Below the pieces are notes generated by a model, which made no database searches, had not been told where the DNA came from, and saw only the letters and a list, made by a program, of their open reading frames with translations. From contig JBBFKQ010000008.1 in assembly GCA_037481935.1 (NCBI GenBank), positions 1-64,000 on the forward strand: 64,000 nucleotides of DNA, in the 5' to 3' direction. The number at the start of each line of letters is the position of its first letter. The first letter of the stretch is position 1. The DNA is from Aquificaceae bacterium (GTDB taxonomy: Bacteria; Aquificota; Aquificia; Aquificales; Aquificaceae). A program made the translations under genes and the position numbers. Shown here one piece after another: positions 14,020-22,115 of this stretch.

Positions 14020-14039
14020 ATGGGGGCTTCTGCCCCCAT
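14020..14039 (+). terminator. Hairpin after tpx
   Basis: Perfect 8-bp stem ATGGGGGC / GCCCCCAT with a TTCT loop, 9 nt after the tpx stop. No proper T run follows; the downstream -10 of the next gene begins 6 nt later, so termination and initiation signals are nearly fused. Confidence 0.65.
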
Positions 14040-14045
14040 CCAGCC

Positions 14046-14051
14046 TATATT
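14046..14051 (+). promoter_or_regulatory. -10 element (TATATT) of the third uma2 gene, leaderless geometry
   Basis: TATATT followed by 7 nt and then ATG 14059, the same arrangement as at 12266-12279. The predicted start is 14058. No SD and no recognisable -35, which would fall in the tpx hairpin. Confidence 0.45.
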
Positions 14052-14058
14052 TAACCTT

Positions 14059-14604
14059 ATGGAAACAAAAACAAAGCTCACCGCAGAGGAGTTTTTCAGA
14101 CTCTATCCCGAAGAGTCCAGAGTGGAGCTCATAGAAGGGGAGGTCTACGAGATGCCCGCGCCAAGTGTTCACCATCAGAGAGTGCTTTTTTACATCTCAA
14201 GGAGTATGCAGGAATTAATTATGAAGCAGGATATTCAGGGTGAGGTCTTTATCTCTCCAGTGGACGTGGTGTTTTCAGAGGATACGGTTCTCCAGCCGGA
14301 CATTGTCTATATGTCAGACCTTTCAGAAGTTAGAGACAGGATATACGCCTCTCCGGACCTTGTAGTGGAAATAGTCTCGCCTTCCACCTTCAAAAGGGAT
14401 TTGACAGATAAGATGAAGCTTTACGAGAGATATGGTGTAAAAGAATACTGGCTTGTGTTTCCTTTAGAAAAGACCATAATGGTCTATGAGCTTACAGAAA
14501 AGGGTTATGAGCTCCTTTCCTATGCCACAGAGAAGGGCAAAGTAAAGTCAAGAGTCCTGCAGGGCTTTGAGCTGGAGGTGGAAGAGCTTTTTGGAGGTCT
14601 GTGA
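14059..14604 (+). CDS. Uma2 family nuclease-like protein, copy 3
   Basis: 181 aa from ATG 14059. An in-frame extension to 14020 would run through the tpx hairpin and lacks family similarity. Same motifs as copy 1: EESRVELIEGEVYEMPAP, LQPDIVYMSD, SPDLVVEIVSPSTFKRD, DKMKLYERYGVKEYWLVFPLEKTIMV. The middle region (about residues 35-65) differs most between paralogues. It heads the second coupled pair and overlaps copy 4 by its stop codon. Confidence 0.88.
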   Translation: METKTKLTAEEFFRLYPEESRVELIEGEVYEMPAPSVHHQRVLFYISRSMQELIMKQDIQGEVFISPVDVVFSEDTVLQPDIVYMSDLSEVRDRIYASPDLVVEIVSPSTFKRDLTDKMKLYERYGVKEYWLVFPLEKTIMVYELTEKGYELLSYATEKGKVKSRVLQGFELEVEELFGGL

Positions 14605-15143
14605 TGGAGGTTAAAACAAGGCTGACCGCTGAGGAGTTTTTTAAACTCTATCCAGAGGAGAGCAGGGTTGAGCTCATTGACGGGGAGGTCTACGAAATGC
14701 CGGCGCCGAGCTTTATGCATCAACTGGTAGTATTGAGGATTGCATCAAACATGCTTTCATGGGTAGATAGCAGAAAGACTGGATTTGTAGTTGCATCACC
14801 TATTGATGTGGTGCTTTCAGAAGATATGGTGCTTCAGCCGGATATAGTCTATGTATCAGATACTTCCAAAGTAGGCAACAGAATACACGGCTCACCAGAC
14901 CTTGTGGTGGAGGTGGTTTCACCTTCCACCCTCAAAAGAGACATAACCGATAAGATGAAAATTTACGAAAAACACCGCATTAAAGAATACTGGCTTGTCT
15001 TTCCTTTAGAAAAGACCATAATGGTCTATGAGCTTACAGAGAAGGGTTATGAGCTTTTTTCTTACGCTACAGAGAAGGGTAGGGTAAAGTCAAAGGTTCT
15101 CGAGGGCTTTGAGCTGGATGTGGAAGAGGTATTTACCTTATAA
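14604..15143 (+). CDS. Uma2 family nuclease-like protein, copy 4
   Basis: 179 aa from ATG 14604 (GGAGGT 7 nt upstream; GTG 14601 is an alternative). Very close to copies 1 and 3 in the C-terminal half (SPDLVVEVVSPST, DKMKIYEK, KEYWLVFPLEKTIMVYELTEKGYELFSYATEKG), suggesting recent duplication or gene conversion. KHRIKEYW replaces KHGVKEYW. It ends 21 nt before the small DUF3276-like gene. Confidence 0.87.
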   Translation: MEVKTRLTAEEFFKLYPEESRVELIDGEVYEMPAPSFMHQLVVLRIASNMLSWVDSRKTGFVVASPIDVVLSEDMVLQPDIVYVSDTSKVGNRIHGSPDLVVEVVSPSTLKRDITDKMKIYEKHRIKEYWLVFPLEKTIMVYELTEKGYELFSYATEKGRVKSKVLEGFELDVEEVFTL

Positions 15144-16194: not shown

Positions 16195-16626
16195 ATGGAG
16201 CAAAAACCAAGGTGGGTCTACAGGCTTGAAAACTACAGAAAAGCTCTAAAACAGCTCAGGTCTGCGGTGGAGCTATTCGGGGAAAGGCAGCTTACAGACC
16301 TGGAAAAGCAGGGTATGATTCAAGCTTTTGAGTATGTGTTTGAACTTGGCTGGAACTTACTGAGAGACTATCTTCTTTATCAGGGACATACGGACATAAA
16401 AGGCTCAAGGGATGCCATAAGAACAGCCTTCAGGTATGGTCTTATAGAGGACGGTGAGCTATGGATACAGATGATGTCTGCTAGAAACCTCACATCACAC
16501 ACCTACGACCAGAGCCTTGCGGAGCAGGTGATTAAAGCAATAGTGGAACAGTATATGTCAGAATTTGAAAAACTCCAGAACGCTTTTGAAAGGCTTGAGA
16601 AGGAATATGAACAGAGTAGCTCTTGA
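16195..16626 (+). CDS. HEPN-domain protein of a HEPN-MNT pair (HI0074 family)
   Basis: 143-aa helical protein matching the HI0074/nucleotidyltransferase-substrate-binding family: WVYRLENYRKALKQLRSAVEL, FEYVFELGWNLLRDYL, and the motif SARNLTSHTYD, which contains the R-x4-H ribonuclease-type HEPN signature (about residue 99). In HEPN-MNT toxin-antitoxin modules this partner is the RNase toxin and the MNT partner neutralises it by AMPylation. Its 3' end overlaps the MNT gene by 20 nt. No SD is obvious and the start may be leaderless. Confidence 0.88.
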   Translation: MEQKPRWVYRLENYRKALKQLRSAVELFGERQLTDLEKQGMIQAFEYVFELGWNLLRDYLLYQGHTDIKGSRDAIRTAFRYGLIEDGELWIQMMSARNLTSHTYDQSLAEQVIKAIVEQYMSEFEKLQNAFERLEKEYEQSSS

Positions 16627-16897
16627 CACTAAGACTCTTGAACTTCTAAAGAGCGTCTTTAGAAAGTATCCAGAGGTGGAGAAGGTTTATCTTTTTGGCT
16701 CAAGGGCAAGAGGCAATTACTCTAAGGCTTCAGACATAGACCTTTTTCTTGTGGCTCCGGGTATGAGCTTTGACCGCTACCTGAAGCTCTACTCAGAGCT
16801 TGAGGAGCTTGACATACCTTATAAGATTGACCTTATAATGAACTGGCAGTTGCCAGAGGAAGCTTTAGAGATATATCCTGAGAAGGTTGACATCTGA
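16607..16897 (+). CDS. MNT-type nucleotidyltransferase, antitoxin of the HEPN-MNT pair
   Basis: 96 aa. Minimal nucleotidyltransferase with YLFGSRARGNYSKASDIDLFLV, the GSx10DxD catalytic motif, and a third acidic strand DIPYKIDLIMN, so all three carboxylates are present. ATG 16607 is preferred over the upstream in-frame start at 16565 because the MNT fold begins here and AGAAGGA lies just upstream. The gene starts inside the HEPN gene. Its last codons contain the -35 (TTGACA) of the downstream metal operon. Confidence 0.88.
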   Translation: MNRVALDTKTLELLKSVFRKYPEVEKVYLFGSRARGNYSKASDIDLFLVAPGMSFDRYLKLYSELEELDIPYKIDLIMNWQLPEEALEIYPEKVDI

Positions 16898-16915
16898 TAT
16901 TGTGAATGTTAAAAT
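16887..16915 (+). promoter_or_regulatory. Strong promoter of the metal-uptake operon
   Basis: TTGACA (16887-16892), 17-bp spacer, TAAAAT (16910-16915). The predicted start near 16922 lies 4 nt before ATG 16926. The -35 is inside the MNT coding sequence. No clear Fur/Zur box is visible around it. Confidence 0.7.
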
Positions 16916-16925
16916 CACTTTCAGC

Positions 16926-17192
16926 ATGAAGCTGGTGGTCTCCCTTCTCAGCACGCTGCTCCTGCTCTTTGCGGACTTTGCGGTGGCAGAGCATCACCAC
17001 GAGGACCATGAGCTTCATGTAGACTGCTCCGTATGTATCCTCCAGCATACCCAGCTGGACACCCCCAGCTACAAGCCCAGTTTAGACATAAGAATTCTCA
17101 CAATCCCTGTAAAATTTCAGGAAAAACCCCTTCAGCCAGTATTTAAACCCCTTATAAAGACCACGCACTGTAGAGCACCTCCTGCCCTCTAA
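16926..17192 (+). CDS. Small secreted His/Cys-rich putative metal-binding protein
   Basis: 88 aa with a signal peptide or anchor (MKLVVSLLSTLLLLFADFAVA) followed by EHHHEDHELHVDCSVC, a dense metal-ligand cluster, then a Pro-rich tail with a further HC (TTHCRAPP). The C-x2-C near the His cluster is reminiscent of DUF2946-like proteins found by metal transport genes. ATG 16926 is preferred over 16887 because the promoter lies between them. First gene of the operon leading to the binding protein and permease. Confidence 0.65.
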   Translation: MKLVVSLLSTLLLLFADFAVAEHHHEDHELHVDCSVCILQHTQLDTPSYKPSLDIRILTIPVKFQEKPLQPVFKPLIKTTHCRAPPAL

Positions 17193-17238
17193 ACCTCTAC
17201 ACCGACCCCTTATAAAAACTCAAAAGGAGGTGCATGCC

Positions 17239-17577
17239 ATGAAAGTTTTATACATTTTCAGCACGCTAAACAGCGCCAGCTACATACTGGGCAGAATGAT
17301 ACTGCCCCAGCTGGAAAACGACGCCCACCCGGTAGAGGTCTCAGGGATGTTTTTCTTTCTTGACAACAACTATGTGCTGGTGAAGGGAAACCCCATAGGG
17401 GAGAGGCTTGCAAAACTTCTCAGGGATGGAAAGATTGGCTTTCTGATGGGTTGCGACCAGTGCTGTTACGAAAGAAACATAGCGGACAAACTCGTGGATG
17501 GTGCCACTATAGGGTGTTTTCCAAACCTTTATGGAAAAGCCCAGCAACTGGGCGTCCAGCAGGTCATAACACTTTAA
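17239..17577 (+). CDS. DsrE-like family protein
   Basis: 112 aa, alpha/beta sulfur-relay-type fold: KVLYIFSTLNSASYILGRMIL at the N-terminus and GFLMGCDQCCYERNIADKLVDGATIGCFPNLYGKA in the second half. Cys-x2-Cys-Cys and a later Cys could carry persulfide or bind metal. ATG 17239 lies 6 nt after a very strong AAAGGAGGTG; GTG 17230 overlaps that SD. It sits in an apparent metal operon, 12 nt before the outer-membrane barrel gene, so a metal- or thiol-handling role is plausible but unproven. Confidence 0.65.
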   Translation: MKVLYIFSTLNSASYILGRMILPQLENDAHPVEVSGMFFFLDNNYVLVKGNPIGERLAKLLRDGKIGFLMGCDQCCYERNIADKLVDGATIGCFPNLYGKAQQLGVQQVITL

Positions 17578-17589
17578 GGAGGTGAAGAG

Positions 17590-19020
17590 ATGAGAAAGGC
17601 TTTTATTTTTCTGACAGGTCTGTTTGGCTTTACCTTTGCACAGGAAAACCTTCAGGACTTGAAGCGTCAGCTGGAAGAGCATAGAAAGCTCATACAGGAG
17701 CTGGAAAGAAAAATTCAGTCCCTTGAAAAAGCTCAGCAGTCAAAGCCAGAGGAAAAGAAAGAGCTCACAAAGCCAGAGCCCGCAGACAGAAGTCTCCAGC
17801 TCAGGGCAAAGTTTGACGAAAGACTGAGAGCATATCAGGTTTCTCCCTTCAGACAGACCGCCTTTCTACCCGACATTTCCTTCATACTGGACTTTTCTGC
17901 GGTGGCAAGAAACAGAAAGGATAAGGAATACGAGGAGCTTGTAATTCCCAGGCTCTGGCACAGGCACGAGCACAACGGGCACGGACATGCACTCCTGAAC
18001 GATAAGAGAGGCTTTAACCTCAACTACGGAGAGCTGTATCTGTATGCTCCTGTTGACCCTTACTTTGACCTGTATGCGACCATACCCTTCTCCGAAGATG
18101 GTGCGGAAATAGAAGAAGCCTATGCGGTCACTAGAGGTCTTCCCGGTGGCTTACAGCTGAAGGTGGGTAAGTTCAGGAGCGGTTTTGGAAGGCTCAACGC
18201 ACAGCACCCTCACGCATGGGACTTTGCCACCCAGCCACTTCCCAACAAGGTATTTCTTGGTGATGACGGGCTTGTGGAGAAAGGCATAGGTATAAACTGG
18301 CTTGCACCTACACCCTTTTATCTTCTCTTTGGTCTTGAGGTGCTTCAGGGGGAGAACGACCAGAGCTTTGGCTACAAGGGCTTTACCATAACTGACCCAA
18401 ACAATCCAAGCAATACCTTTGAAATTGGCGACAAGCCAGTTCCAAACCTCTATGTGGGCTATATGAAGACCTCCTTTGACCTTGGAAGGCTCTCCGTGCT
18501 TACCGGGCTTTCTTACGCTCAGGGTAAGCACAGACACGCTCATGACGACCACGGACTGGATGCGAAGACCAAGCTATACGGCTTTGACCTTACCGCAAGA
18601 TATCAGATAGACAGCGTCAGATATCTGGCTCTGCAGGGTGAGTATATGTGGAGAGACCAGGATGGGACAAGGTATGGCTTTAACAACGCTGGGAACGTGA
18701 CTACAGCAAAGATTGACAGAAAACAGGCAGGTTTTTATGCACAGCTTGTGGGCAGGTTCCACAAGCAGTGGAGGGCAGGTGTTCGCTATGAGCTTATAAA
18801 CAAGAACGATGTTAAAAGAAACGGCACTGCCCTGTGGGCACCCGACAACCTTCCTGCCTACTACGCCATGCTTGAATACACACCCACTGAGTTTTCACGC
18901 ATAAGGCTTCAGGTGGGAGAAAACAGAGCCTTCTACGAGGGTCAGAAACGCAAGCCCGTAAAAGAGGTCATCCTGCAGTTCAACTTTGCCATAGGAGCCC
19001 ATGGTGCGCATCCTTTCTGA
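17590..19020 (+). CDS. Outer-membrane porin-like beta-barrel with histidine-rich loops
   Basis: 476 aa: signal peptide (1-17, TFAQ), periplasmic coiled coil (about 20-60, LKRQLEEHRKLIQELERKIQSLE), then a barrel of alternating strands with girdle aromatics ending in LQFNFAIGAHGAHPF. Histidine clusters fall in predicted loops: HRHEHNGHGHALL (about 120), AQHPHAWD (about 205), KHRHAHDDHGLD (about 315) and the terminal GAHGAHPF. The plan (coiled coil plus barrel) is that of trimerising OprO/P-like porins. His clusters and neighbours suggest capture or passage of Zn or another transition metal. Preceded by AAGGAGG. Confidence 0.75.
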   Translation: MRKAFIFLTGLFGFTFAQENLQDLKRQLEEHRKLIQELERKIQSLEKAQQSKPEEKKELTKPEPADRSLQLRAKFDERLRAYQVSPFRQTAFLPDISFILDFSAVARNRKDKEYEELVIPRLWHRHEHNGHGHALLNDKRGFNLNYGELYLYAPVDPYFDLYATIPFSEDGAEIEEAYAVTRGLPGGLQLKVGKFRSGFGRLNAQHPHAWDFATQPLPNKVFLGDDGLVEKGIGINWLAPTPFYLLFGLEVLQGENDQSFGYKGFTITDPNNPSNTFEIGDKPVPNLYVGYMKTSFDLGRLSVLTGLSYAQGKHRHAHDDHGLDAKTKLYGFDLTARYQIDSVRYLALQGEYMWRDQDGTRYGFNNAGNVTTAKIDRKQAGFYAQLVGRFHKQWRAGVRYELINKNDVKRNGTALWAPDNLPAYYAMLEYTPTEFSRIRLQVGENRAFYEGQKRKPVKEVILQFNFAIGAHGAHPF

Positions 19021-19028
19021 AATCGCAG

Positions 19029-19047
19029 GCGGGGGGTCACTCCCCGC
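19029..19047 (+). terminator. GC-rich hairpin within the metal operon
   Basis: GCGGGG / CCCCGC stem (6 bp) with a 7-nt loop, 8 nt after the barrel gene stop. No T run. It may attenuate transcription before the transporter genes or stabilise the upstream mRNA. The remaining 140 bp to 19187 hold no recognisable gene; a T-rich stretch and the SD of the next gene are all I see. Confidence 0.4.
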
Positions 19048-19187
19048 ATATCTAACTCCCTGCAAGAATACAATCAAAATCTTTTTCATTAAGAAATTTT
19101 CTAATCGCTCTGTCTCTTCGGTCACGCTGAGCCTTGCTCCCTCTACTGTGGAAGCACCGTTTATGACAGGAGGGGGGAGGGGTTATT

Positions 19188-19412
19188 ATGCTTAAGAAAG
19201 TCTTCGTAAAGACGCTCCCTCTTGTTCCTTACGCTGGCACCCTTGGGGTGTTTTCTGCCTGCGGTTGTGGGCACTGTCCCGCATGCCTTGGGGCTTCAGC
19301 CAGCGTGGTGGGTCTTGCCCTGCTTATAGGTAGTAAAAAGCTCCTTTCCTCTATAAGGGGAGGGGAGGCTGAGGGGGAAGGGGGTAAACATACAAGGAGG
19401 TGTGAGCCATGA
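19188..19412 (+). CDS. Small Cys-rich membrane protein (unidentified)
   Basis: 74 aa. N-terminal basic residues, a helix, then ACGCGHCPACLG (C-x-C-x2-C-x2-C) immediately before a second hydrophobic helix (ASVVGLALLIG), and a basic/Glu/Gly tail. The four closely spaced Cys could bind a thiophilic metal at the membrane face. It overlaps the binding-protein gene by 4 nt. The GGAGGGGGGAGGGG upstream is an ample SD. No family recognised. Confidence 0.6.
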   Translation: MLKKVFVKTLPLVPYAGTLGVFSACGCGHCPACLGASASVVGLALLIGSKKLLSSIRGGEAEGEGGKHTRRCEP

Positions 19413-20293
19413 AAAGTCTGCTGGTCTTTTTGCTCCTTAGCCTCTCCTTTGCCTCTGCCCAGCTGAGGGTAGTTGCCACCTACCCATGGATAGGGGAGCT
19501 GGTGAAGGAAGTGGGTGGGGACAGGGTAAGGGTGCATGTTATAGCCCGTCCGGATGAAGATTTTCACTTTGTGGTGCCAAGACCTTCTCATATAGCAAAG
19601 CTAAGGGATGCGGACCTGCTGGTTATAAACGGTGCGAGCCTTGAAGTTGGCTTTCTTCCACCACTCCTTCAGCAGTCCAACAATCCAAGAATTCAGCCGG
19701 GAAGGGAGGGTTTTCTGGATCTCTCGGAGTTTGTCCAGATAATAGAAAAGCCTGAGAGGGTTTCCAGAGAGATGGGGGACGTGCATCCGGAGGGAAATCC
19801 TCACTACGTGTATGACCCCTACAACATTCCAGTGCTCGCAAAAGCGGTCACCGAAAGGATGTGTCAGCTCAGGCAGTCTGAATGCTCTTTCTACAGGTCA
19901 AACCTTGAGGACTTCCTCAGAAGATGGAATGCAAAGCTGAAGGAATGGGACGAGGGCTTTTTAAAGCTCAGAGGCTTGAAAGTTATCCAGTGGCATAAAA
20001 CCTACAACTATCTCTTTAATCGCTATGGAATACAGACTATAGGCACCTTAGAGCCTATTCCTGGTATTCCCCCCACCGCAAGACATCTTGAACAGCTTGT
20101 GTCCTCCGCAAAAGGTCAGGGGGTGAGGTATGTGGTCATTGAGGGCTTCAGGGCTGGAGAGAGAAGGACTGCCCAGAGGGTGGCAGAGCAAATAGGTGCA
20201 AAGGTGGCTATACTTCCCAGCGACGTGGGCTCCGAAGGTGCAAAAAGCCTTTTTGAAATGTATGACATAATCCTGAGGAGGCTATCTCAGTGA
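19409..20293 (+). CDS. Metal ABC transporter substrate-binding protein (TroA/ZnuA cluster A-I)
   Basis: 294 aa with a signal peptide (1-17, LSLSFASAQ). Family landmarks in order: VVATYPWIGELVKEVGGDRVRVHVI; the first His ligand in DEDFHFVVPRPSHIAKL; LLVINGASLEVGFL; the second His in NPHYVYDPYN; the third in QWHKTYNYLFNRYGI; and a late acidic segment SDVGSEGAKSLFEMYD. No His-rich loop of the ZnuA kind is inserted, so Zn, Mn or another divalent metal are all possible. It has no lipobox. It overlaps the permease by 4 nt. Confidence 0.9.
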   Translation: MKSLLVFLLLSLSFASAQLRVVATYPWIGELVKEVGGDRVRVHVIARPDEDFHFVVPRPSHIAKLRDADLLVINGASLEVGFLPPLLQQSNNPRIQPGREGFLDLSEFVQIIEKPERVSREMGDVHPEGNPHYVYDPYNIPVLAKAVTERMCQLRQSECSFYRSNLEDFLRRWNAKLKEWDEGFLKLRGLKVIQWHKTYNYLFNRYGIQTIGTLEPIPGIPPTARHLEQLVSSAKGQGVRYVVIEGFRAGERRTAQRVAEQIGAKVAILPSDVGSEGAKSLFEMYDIILRRLSQ

Positions 20294-21021
20294 TATGGGA
20301 CTTGTTTCTTTCCAGCTTTCTTCTCTCTGTGTTGCTTGTGGGCATTCATGCCTACTTTGGCAGGGAGATAGTCCGCAGGGGTATAATCTTCACAGACATT
20401 GCGGTGGCTCAGTTTTCAGGGGTGGGCATTGCCCTCTCCCTCATGCTCTTTCATGGAGAATATACCTACTTATTTTCCTTGTTCTTTGGCCTGCTTGCCA
20501 GCCTTCTCATAGCCCTGTCTCAAAGGCTTAAAGATTATGCTGAAGCCTTCATAGGTCTTCTCTACGCCCTTGGCTTTTCCCTTGTAGTTCTTATACTGTC
20601 CTTCTCTGCCCATGGCATGGAGGAGCTCAAAAGGCTCACAGCCAGCGACATCCTTTTCGTAAGACTTGAAGAGGTGTTAAAAACCGCATTCATATACTCC
20701 GCCATCGGCATAATGCTATACCTTCGCAGGTATCTCAGAGGGCTTCTGCGGGAGCTTTCCTTTTTTGCCCTATTTTCCCTTACCCTTGCCAGCTCAGTCA
20801 AGCTTGCTGGCGTGCTTGTGGTCTTCTCTCTTCTTGTATCCCCTGCCCTCGTTTCTCTGCTTCTGGGTAGGGGGCTTGTCTTTGCCTGGGTATGGGGGAC
20901 CTTCTGGAGCTTTCTGGCAATAGCCCTTTCCTTCTGGCTTGATATGCCCACTGGATATAGTCTTGTTTTCTTACACTCTCTAATGGGGCTTGCTGTGTTT
21001 ATAATTAAAATGGCTAAATGA
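20290..21021 (+). CDS. Metal ABC transporter permease (ZnuB/TroC family)
   Basis: 243 aa, about eight hydrophobic segments. RRGIIFTDIAVAQFSGVGIALSLMLF matches the conserved loop of ABC-3 permeases, and LASSVKLAGVLVVFSLLVSPALVSLLL the second conserved block. It begins at GTG 20290, overlapping the TGA of the binding protein. It is shorter than typical (270-290 aa). No cognate ATPase gene is adjacent; the next gene is an unrelated glycosyltransferase that overlaps by 4 nt. Either the ATPase is encoded elsewhere or a shared one is used. Confidence 0.9.
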   Translation: MIWDLFLSSFLLSVLLVGIHAYFGREIVRRGIIFTDIAVAQFSGVGIALSLMLFHGEYTYLFSLFFGLLASLLIALSQRLKDYAEAFIGLLYALGFSLVVLILSFSAHGMEELKRLTASDILFVRLEEVLKTAFIYSAIGIMLYLRRYLRGLLRELSFFALFSLTLASSVKLAGVLVVFSLLVSPALVSLLLGRGLVFAWVWGTFWSFLAIALSFWLDMPTGYSLVFLHSLMGLAVFIIKMAK

Positions 21022-22115
21022 AGGTGTTGATACTCACCTCTTCTTTTGGTGGGGGGCATAACAGCGTTGCAAGGGCTATCAAAAGAGCCCTTGAGGAAAA
21101 CTACTCTGCAAGCGTCAGGATAGAAGACCCCTACCACCTCATGAACCCGAGACTGAACCAGATTAACGCAAGGTTCTACGTATACATGATGAAATACTTT
21201 CCCGGAGTTTACGGGCTTTTTTACAACTCCACCTATGACCTTGAAAAGGACAGCATCCTTAACTTTCTCCTCTCCCTTCCGGGCATTGATAAGCTGAGGG
21301 AGCTTTTAGAAGAAGAAAGACCGGATGCGGTGGTGGCGGTCTACCCTACCTACGCGGGCATGCTCAGGATACTTAGAGAGAGAGGCTTTTCTGTTCCGAA
21401 GAGTTTTGTGGTGATAACGGACTTCGTTGCCCATGTGCAGTGGCTTCATGACGGTATAGATGTTTACTTCGTGCCTTCAGAGGAGGTAAAGTTTCACTTA
21501 CACAGAAAGGGTGTGGTCTGCGGATGGGTTCAAGTCACGGGTATACCCATAAATCCCGAGTTTGAGAAGTTCCGGGAAAGAGACAGGGACACAGTCCTCA
21601 TAAGTGCAGGTATGTTTGGTATGACCCCCTCCGTTATGGAGATATGTAAGGTGGTCGAAGAAGTTGTTCCCCGGAACCTAAAAATAACACTGCTGTGTGG
21701 CACCGACAGAAGACTTTATCAGAAGGTGAAAATGAGATTCAGAAGGGTTGAGGCGGTTGAAGGAGTCCTCACCCACGAAGAGATGGCGAGATATATGGGT
21801 AGGTCTGTTCTTCTCATATCAAAGGCAGGTGGCATAACCACTTCAGAAGCTCTTTCTGCAGAGACACCTCTTCTCGTCTACAGACCACTCCCCGGTCAGG
21901 AATACTACAACGCTCTGTATCTTCTGAAAAACGAGGCGGGAATGGTTGCCGGCAACAGGAGAGAGCTCGGTAGAGTCCTGAGGTTCTTCTTTGAAGATAG
22001 CCAGTTCAGGGAATCTCTTAGAGAAAACATAAGAAGGCTCAGGAAGCCCCATTCTTCCCTTTCAGTAGCCAGAGGTATACATGATGCCCTGCAGAAAGAA
22101 GGTTTAGGGTTATAA
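21018..22115 (+). CDS. MurG/MGDG-synthase-like glycosyltransferase
   Basis: 365 aa. N-terminal VLILTSSFGGGHNSVARAI is the donor/acceptor loop of diacylglycerol glycosyltransferases (MGDG synthase/YpfP-UgtP, GT28). VITDFVAHVQWLHDGIDVYFVPSEE and ISKAGGITTSEALSAETPLLVYRPLPGQEYYN are the acceptor-side and UDP-sugar-binding motifs. It likely makes a glycolipid at the inner membrane. It overlaps the permease start-stop (ATGA). Its 3' end overlaps the convergent pgsA-like gene by 77 bp. Confidence 0.85.
   Translation: MKVLILTSSFGGGHNSVARAIKRALEENYSASVRIEDPYHLMNPRLNQINARFYVYMMKYFPGVYGLFYNSTYDLEKDSILNFLLSLPGIDKLRELLEEERPDAVVAVYPTYAGMLRILRERGFSVPKSFVVITDFVAHVQWLHDGIDVYFVPSEEVKFHLHRKGVVCGWVQVTGIPINPEFEKFRERDRDTVLISAGMFGMTPSVMEICKVVEEVVPRNLKITLLCGTDRRLYQKVKMRFRRVEAVEGVLTHEEMARYMGRSVLLISKAGGITTSEALSAETPLLVYRPLPGQEYYNALYLLKNEAGMVAGNRRELGRVLRFFFEDSQFRESLRENIRRLRKPHSSLSVARGIHDALQKEGLGL

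Follow-up and report, generated by a model that had tools for sequence, protein, structure and literature searches.

The window analysed here is a 64,000-nucleotide stretch of DNA from an Aquificaceae bacterium (contig JBBFKQ010000008.1, our C8, of a 1.69 Mb Aquificota genome), and the subject is an operon within it (16926-21021) of six open reading frames (ORFs) on the forward strand, numbered g1 to g6. Four of these encode a small secreted His/Cys protein (g1), an outer-membrane porin-type barrel (g3), a ZnuA/TroA-type metal-binding protein (g5) and a permease derived from the ABC-3 family of ATP-binding cassette (ABC) transporters (g6). We think it probable that these four form a metal uptake line that spans both membranes and works independently of an ATPase. 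A preliminary description of this DNA had recognised the operon and the absence of an ATPase from it, and had suggested that an ATPase might be shared with another system. The operon is real and unusual; that account of the missing ATPase is the less likely one.

In the path that we propose, the His-bearing porin would admit metal, most likely Zn2+, across the outer membrane, and the small His/Cys protein would collect the metal or pass it on at the periplasmic side. The binding protein would then capture the ion by three histidines and one aspartate and dock on the permease, through which entry would be driven by a proton gradient or the membrane potential or would proceed downhill as gated, facilitated entry. 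From the sequences we infer that the substrate is zinc, given the family and ligands of the binding protein, that the direction is import, given the presence of a binding protein at all, and that the energy comes from a source other than ATP hydrolysis.

The permease (g6, 20290..21021, forward strand) matches PF00950 at 45.8 bits (cut-off 20.1) and no other family, so that it is not a membrane subunit of the DctM/TctA type. Its AlphaFold2 (AF2) model has a predicted local distance difference test (pLDDT) value of 93.3, and the closest fold by Foldseek is PsaC (7kyp, TM 0.74), the best folds being those of the importers PsaC, BtuC and HmuU. What distinguishes the protein is the segment in which an ABC-3 permease would be expected to carry its coupling helix. 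For comparison we took canonical ABC-3 permeases from the same genomes and from relatives (n = 41); all 41 have a segment of 15 residues that carries [DNS]-E-x-x-A-x-x-x-G or a near variant of this motif, whereas in 80 of 80 permeases of the window type it measures 3-5 residues. In g6 the site (20731..20742, forward strand) is a two-residue turn, 149-150, between the transmembrane (TM) helices 126-148 and 151-173 of the AF2 model as assigned by DSSP. Hidden Markov model (HMM) alignments place the same gap opposite the solved structures of E. coli ZnuB (9oko, which g6 matches at E 1.3e-12) and PsaC (7kyo). By homology and position, rather than from an examined structure, the deleted segment would be the coupling helix itself. 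In FhuB the coupling-helix loop that docks on the ATPase covers positions 209-226 and 542-559 and terminates in Gly residues, the mutation of which lowers uptake (PMC8660799), while in PsaBC the coupling helices are allosteric hot spots (PMC11779740). As g6 appears to lack the helix that would receive force from an ATPase, entry through it would be gradient-driven or downhill.

Window-type permeases form one clade against the canonical ones (support 1.0, branch 1.76), and the TM2 histidine that is invariant in the canonical set (41/41) is glutamine throughout the window type (80/80). Within the clade D36, E85, E111 and D120 are invariant and H20 is nearly so, and coupling to a gradient would be expected to use these clade-specific residues. 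The closest working precedent for running without ATP is SbmA, an ABC membrane domain that uses protons. A sub-case of gradient-driven or downhill entry is a purely passive channel, gated by the binding protein, with the membrane potential and the gradient of the metal as the sole driving forces and no ion coupling, which we hold possible but rather doubtful. A negative-inside potential favours the entry of divalent cations and such a channel needs neither an ATPase nor a coupling helix, but the same five residues suggest more than a pore and recall the glutamate ladder of SbmA.

The conserved four-gene module

We defined the core set as g1 (HxHxD..HxDCxxC..RAPP) together with the porin-type barrel, the binding protein of the ZnuA type and the permease of the ABC-3 type. 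A window-type permease is clear in ~43 of 136 Aquificota genomes at an identity of at least 41%, and the order g1, barrel, binding protein, permease is kept in the 36 Aquificota loci that were fetched, with flanks that vary by genus. When the permease alignment was run against one genome per species 355 matches were obtained, and the best 80 of these were analysed; they come from Aquificota, Campylobacterota (Sulfurimonas, Sulfuricurvum and others), Bacteroidota/Ignavibacteria/Chlorobi, Spirochaetota, Acidobacteriota, Aminicenantes and others. The module is kept together in at least six bacterial phyla (Aquificota and five or more others). Among the 79 loci with a permease ORF, the binding protein stands directly upstream in 75, binding protein and barrel both accompany the permease in 70, and all four genes are recovered by HMM in 47, many of the loci that fall short of four having a small CxxC...(R/H)xPP ORF in position or a contig end. 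The stop of the binding-protein gene is overlapped by the permease start in most loci. A Sulfurovum plasmid also carries the module, its genes annotated as hypothetical, hypothetical, 'zinc ABC transporter substrate-binding protein' and 'metal ABC transporter permease'. Purifying selection was seen on all four genes tested (permease ratio of non-synonymous to synonymous substitution rates, dN/dS, ~0.08).

In the binding protein (g5, 19409..20293, forward strand; PF01297, E 3.7e-41) H53, H132, H196 and D272 are retained by 110 or more of the 111 members of the family, and these three histidines and the aspartate we take to be the ligand set expected of ZnuA-type zinc binding. The barrel (g3, 17590..19020, forward strand) is assigned by predicted fold; its AF2 model (pLDDT 82) has ~16 strands and an N-terminal coiled coil, and its best Foldseek matches are all porins (VhChiP, a chitoporin, MOMP, OmpT, OprO and DcaP). 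The four His clusters attributed to it earlier are real, but invariance across relatives is confined to H206/H208 (HxH) and the C-terminal H471/H474 (IGAHGAHPF). The small protein (g1, 16926..17192, forward strand), secreted and of a metal-binding type, carries the pattern HxHxDxxxHxDCxxC...RAPP, and H23, H25, D27, H31, C34, C37, R83, P85 and P86 are invariant in the 27 Aquificota relatives aligned. Neither g1 nor g3, nor the small g4 described below, matches a Pfam or NCBIfam family above cut-off. The families assigned to g5 and g6 bear out the preliminary description, and its idea of barrel, periplasmic metal-binding protein and inner-membrane permease as one unit is upheld by their conservation together, by the porin fold and by the retained site of three His and one Asp.

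An alternative use for such a unit would be a sensor or metal-relay complex of g5 and g6, whose task would be to load proteins of the periplasm or membrane, or to signal the zinc status, and not to transport. We consider this unlikely. The lack of a visible energy source and the company of a porin and a CxxC protein would be compatible with it, and ABC-fold membrane proteins without transport roles exist; nevertheless, no signalling partner such as a kinase or regulator recurs beside the module in the loci compared, and the unit is self-contained and resembles a route of uptake that leads from the outer membrane to the inner one.

ATPases and the canonical zinc importer

No ATPase gene lies in or beside the window operon, and none was found within the unit, whether fused or adjacent, in ~115 loci. 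By the same method a ZnuC-like ATPase was found beside a canonical ABC-3 permease in 27 of 39 loci and beside a window-type permease in none. ATPases do occur near five of our loci (L122, L129, L135, L139 and L194), but none of them is next to the unit, and those that were read belong to other systems, being of exporter type (L129) or paired with a permease of their own (L135).

We also screened for ABC-3 permeases another 48 genomes with the system, which lie outside the first set or extend it. In ~14 of them the window-type permease is the only one: in ten, either just one gene was matched or the second match fell below cut-off, and in four there are additional weak matches, in reading frames as long as FecCD, which are presumably FecCD. 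For the ATPases the host ZnuC served as query, and as score alone failed to separate ZnuC from other ATPases, the best match in each genome, and only that one, was typed by NCBIfam. In eight candidate genomes, two of them outside the 48 screened for permeases, the best ATPases are of exporter or LptB type (GldA, DrrA or LptB) and none types as ZnuC, whereas those of control genomes with a canonical ZnuB type as AztA/MntA.

The host itself holds exactly two ABC-3 permeases, g6 and a canonical ZnuB on contig C4. Its single ZnuC-type ATPase (C1:211057-211728) is not the orphan that the preliminary description had suggested searching for, as it adjoins its own ZnuA and the canonical ZnuB is encoded elsewhere. 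This canonical importer is split, with ZnuA and ZnuC adjacent on C1 (L041, 6055-7550) and ZnuB alone on C4 (L033, 5744-6562); elsewhere in the host family there are genera in which ZnuC and ZnuB stand side by side (e.g., L254 and L255). Because the canonical znu system is complete, if scattered, g5 and g6 of the window are second paralogues.

The family-wide loss of the coupling helix, together with genomes in which no ZnuC type was recognised, makes a shared ATPase unlikely. That g6 belongs to a normal ABC-3 importer which borrows its ATPase from elsewhere, e.g., the canonical ZnuC of the host, therefore seems to us quite improbable: sharing between importers is known in general, the host has one ZnuC-type ATPase to lend, and those Aquificota genomes with the system that are nearly complete hold a canonical ABC-3 permease as well, but the coupling helix is gone in every member, the host ZnuC has partners of its own, the ~14 genomes without another ABC-3 permease are of other phyla and the best ATPases typed are not of ZnuC type, and the two zinc ABC systems of Paracoccus do not swap even their binding proteins (PMC7731109).

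Several observations count against ATPase-independent uptake as we propose it. The window system is not the sole zinc route of the host, which retains a canonical ZnuABC. A palindrome search for a Zur/Fur operator 5' of g1, made over 81 upstream regions, gave no common motif and so no support for zinc control. Most of the genomes without a canonical permease are metagenome-assembled and of unstated completeness, and other loops of a permease might in principle serve to recruit an ATPase.

Operon borders and accessory genes

The operon is preceded by a sigma-70-type promoter (16887..16915, forward strand) made up of TTGACA (16887-16892), a 17-nt spacer and TAAAAT (16910-16915), which ends 10 nt before the first ATG; both this element and the order of the six genes behind it agree exactly with the preliminary description. 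The promoter scores 11 of 12 matches and is the top of 7 promoter-like sites in 6 kb, where 4.5 are expected by chance, and the same elements stand 5' of g1 in two close relatives (L050 and L054). Position 16887, earlier given as the operon start, lies inside the promoter; g1 more likely begins at ATG 16926, a few bases past the expected transcription start, with almost no leader. The six genes were also said to be tightly packed. They are all present on one strand, but packing is uneven, with a gap of 167 nt between the barrel and g4.

Two of the six genes are accessories. The first, g2 (17239..17577, forward strand), encodes a DsrE/SaoD-like protein with C-x2-CC (NCBIfam NF040913, E 4.5e-42); the likeness to DsrE that had been noted is visible in the score, but at 142.7 bits against 152 for NF040913, and 141.1 against 169, it is below the NCBIfam cut-offs. 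A selenocysteine/organometal (Sao) link through g2 was considered and set aside, the score being sub-cut-off and no supporting paper having been found. The gene is extremely conserved (dN/dS 0.01) and 12 copies occur in the phylum, all but two inside the operon, though most copies of the operon are without it. With g2 in 9 of the 36 Aquificota loci we rejected it as a core part. The second, g4 (19188..19412, forward strand), encodes a Cys-rich membrane peptide with CGCGHCPAC and is found in 8 of the 36, in the window genus only. Thus, of the four genes that lead the operon, the small His/Cys protein and the barrel belong to the conserved neighbourhood, and the DsrE-like protein and the Cys peptide, previously counted as parts of the system, do not.

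At the other end, the stop of g6 overlaps at 21018 the start of g7 (21018..22115, forward strand), which encodes a glycosyltransferase resembling monogalactosyldiacylglycerol (MGDG)/diglucosyl-diacylglycerol synthase (PF06925, E 2.8e-31), and owing to this overlap the transcript may extend beyond the permease. The gene adjoins the permease in just three other loci, of the window genus, and is probably a co-transcribed passenger outside the system. Just upstream of the operon lies a nucleotidyltransferase pair of the HepT/MNT type (16195-16897), the 3' end of whose second gene is overlapped by the operon promoter, and farther off (14020-15143) are two tandem, near-duplicate ORFs that look Uma2/DUF820-like by eye.

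The surroundings of the module in other genomes are varied. In three Hydrogenothermaceae (L074, L075 and L082) it is embedded in the operon for complex I (nuo), flanked by genes that resemble those for NuoCD and NuoH. A transposase-like ORF is inserted between barrel and binding protein in L070, and an unidentified ORF of 342 aa after the barrel in L048. Three Bacteroidota/Ignavibacteria loci (L130, L133 and L150) have 3' of the permease a small NifX-like protein with a His-rich insert, and L144 has a Fur-family-like gene there, both recognised by eye. A second member of the barrel family occurs a few kb from the operon in L176, L181 and L186.

Relation to known transporters

The nearest known systems are ZnuABC, TroABCD and PsaBCA (cluster A-I), which share a ZnuA-fold binding protein (three His and an Asp) and a ZnuB/PsaC-homologous permease with the window system. 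The latter differs in having no ATPase, in the deletion of the coupling helix, in the replacement of the TM2 His by Gln, and in the addition of a dedicated porin and a small His/Cys protein to the operon. AztABCD of Paracoccus is also close in one part, AztC being the NCBIfam family that g5 matches best (E 1.3e-30), but with a score of 107 against a cut-off of 350; the window operon has no AztA ATPase, and no AztD chaperone was recognised in it. A binding protein that feeds an ATPase-free permease is likewise found in TRAP and TTT transporters, whose permeases (DctM/TctA) are of families unrelated to PF00950.

For the loss of the ATPase the best parallel is SbmA and its relatives (SLiPTs), which arose when ABC transporters lost their ATPase domain together with the coupling helices, and which are driven by protons (PMC13316013). 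They resemble the window permease as ABC membrane domains with neither ATPase nor coupling helices and with conserved acidic residues. However, SLiPTs have the type IV exporter fold and no binding protein, whereas the window system has the ABC-3 metal-importer fold and a binding protein, and the proton coupling of SLiPTs is matched here by conserved ionisable residues alone. At the outer membrane, ZnuD and other TonB-dependent zinc receptors serve the corresponding step of zinc uptake, but g3 has a general porin fold with a coiled coil (nearest VhChiP, OprO and DcaP) and no Pfam plug or TonB-receptor domain. The small protein g1 may be compared with DUF2946 proteins, which are likewise small and secreted; its fit to that model (PF11162) is marginal, 5 of the 27 members touching it at E 0.035 or worse and none giving a curated match. 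In Caulobacter the first gene of the czrCBA-zntA operon, which responds to Zur, is of the DUF2946 type (PMC4176598). A literature search for ATPase-free ABC-3 systems or zinc porins found nothing.

Parts of the system are descended from an ABC importer. ABC importers are defined by their ATPase, and as two of the defining features that were tested here, the coupling helix and a cognate ATPase, are lacking, the system should not be filed as one. Whether it represents a new class, in which permeases of the importer fold have shed ATPase and coupling helix and serve, bundled with a porin and a His/Cys protein, as binding-protein-dependent metal importers that are gradient-driven or gated and passive, is to our minds an evenly balanced question. 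If this is true, the class would be, as far as we know, the importer-fold counterpart of SbmA, and would make the ATP-free running of a binding-protein importer directly testable. It would also correct the annotation of probably hundreds of genes now labelled 'metal ABC transporter permease', and the module provides a metal with a defined porin partner in the outer membrane, where little is understood of this step beyond the TonB-dependent receptors.

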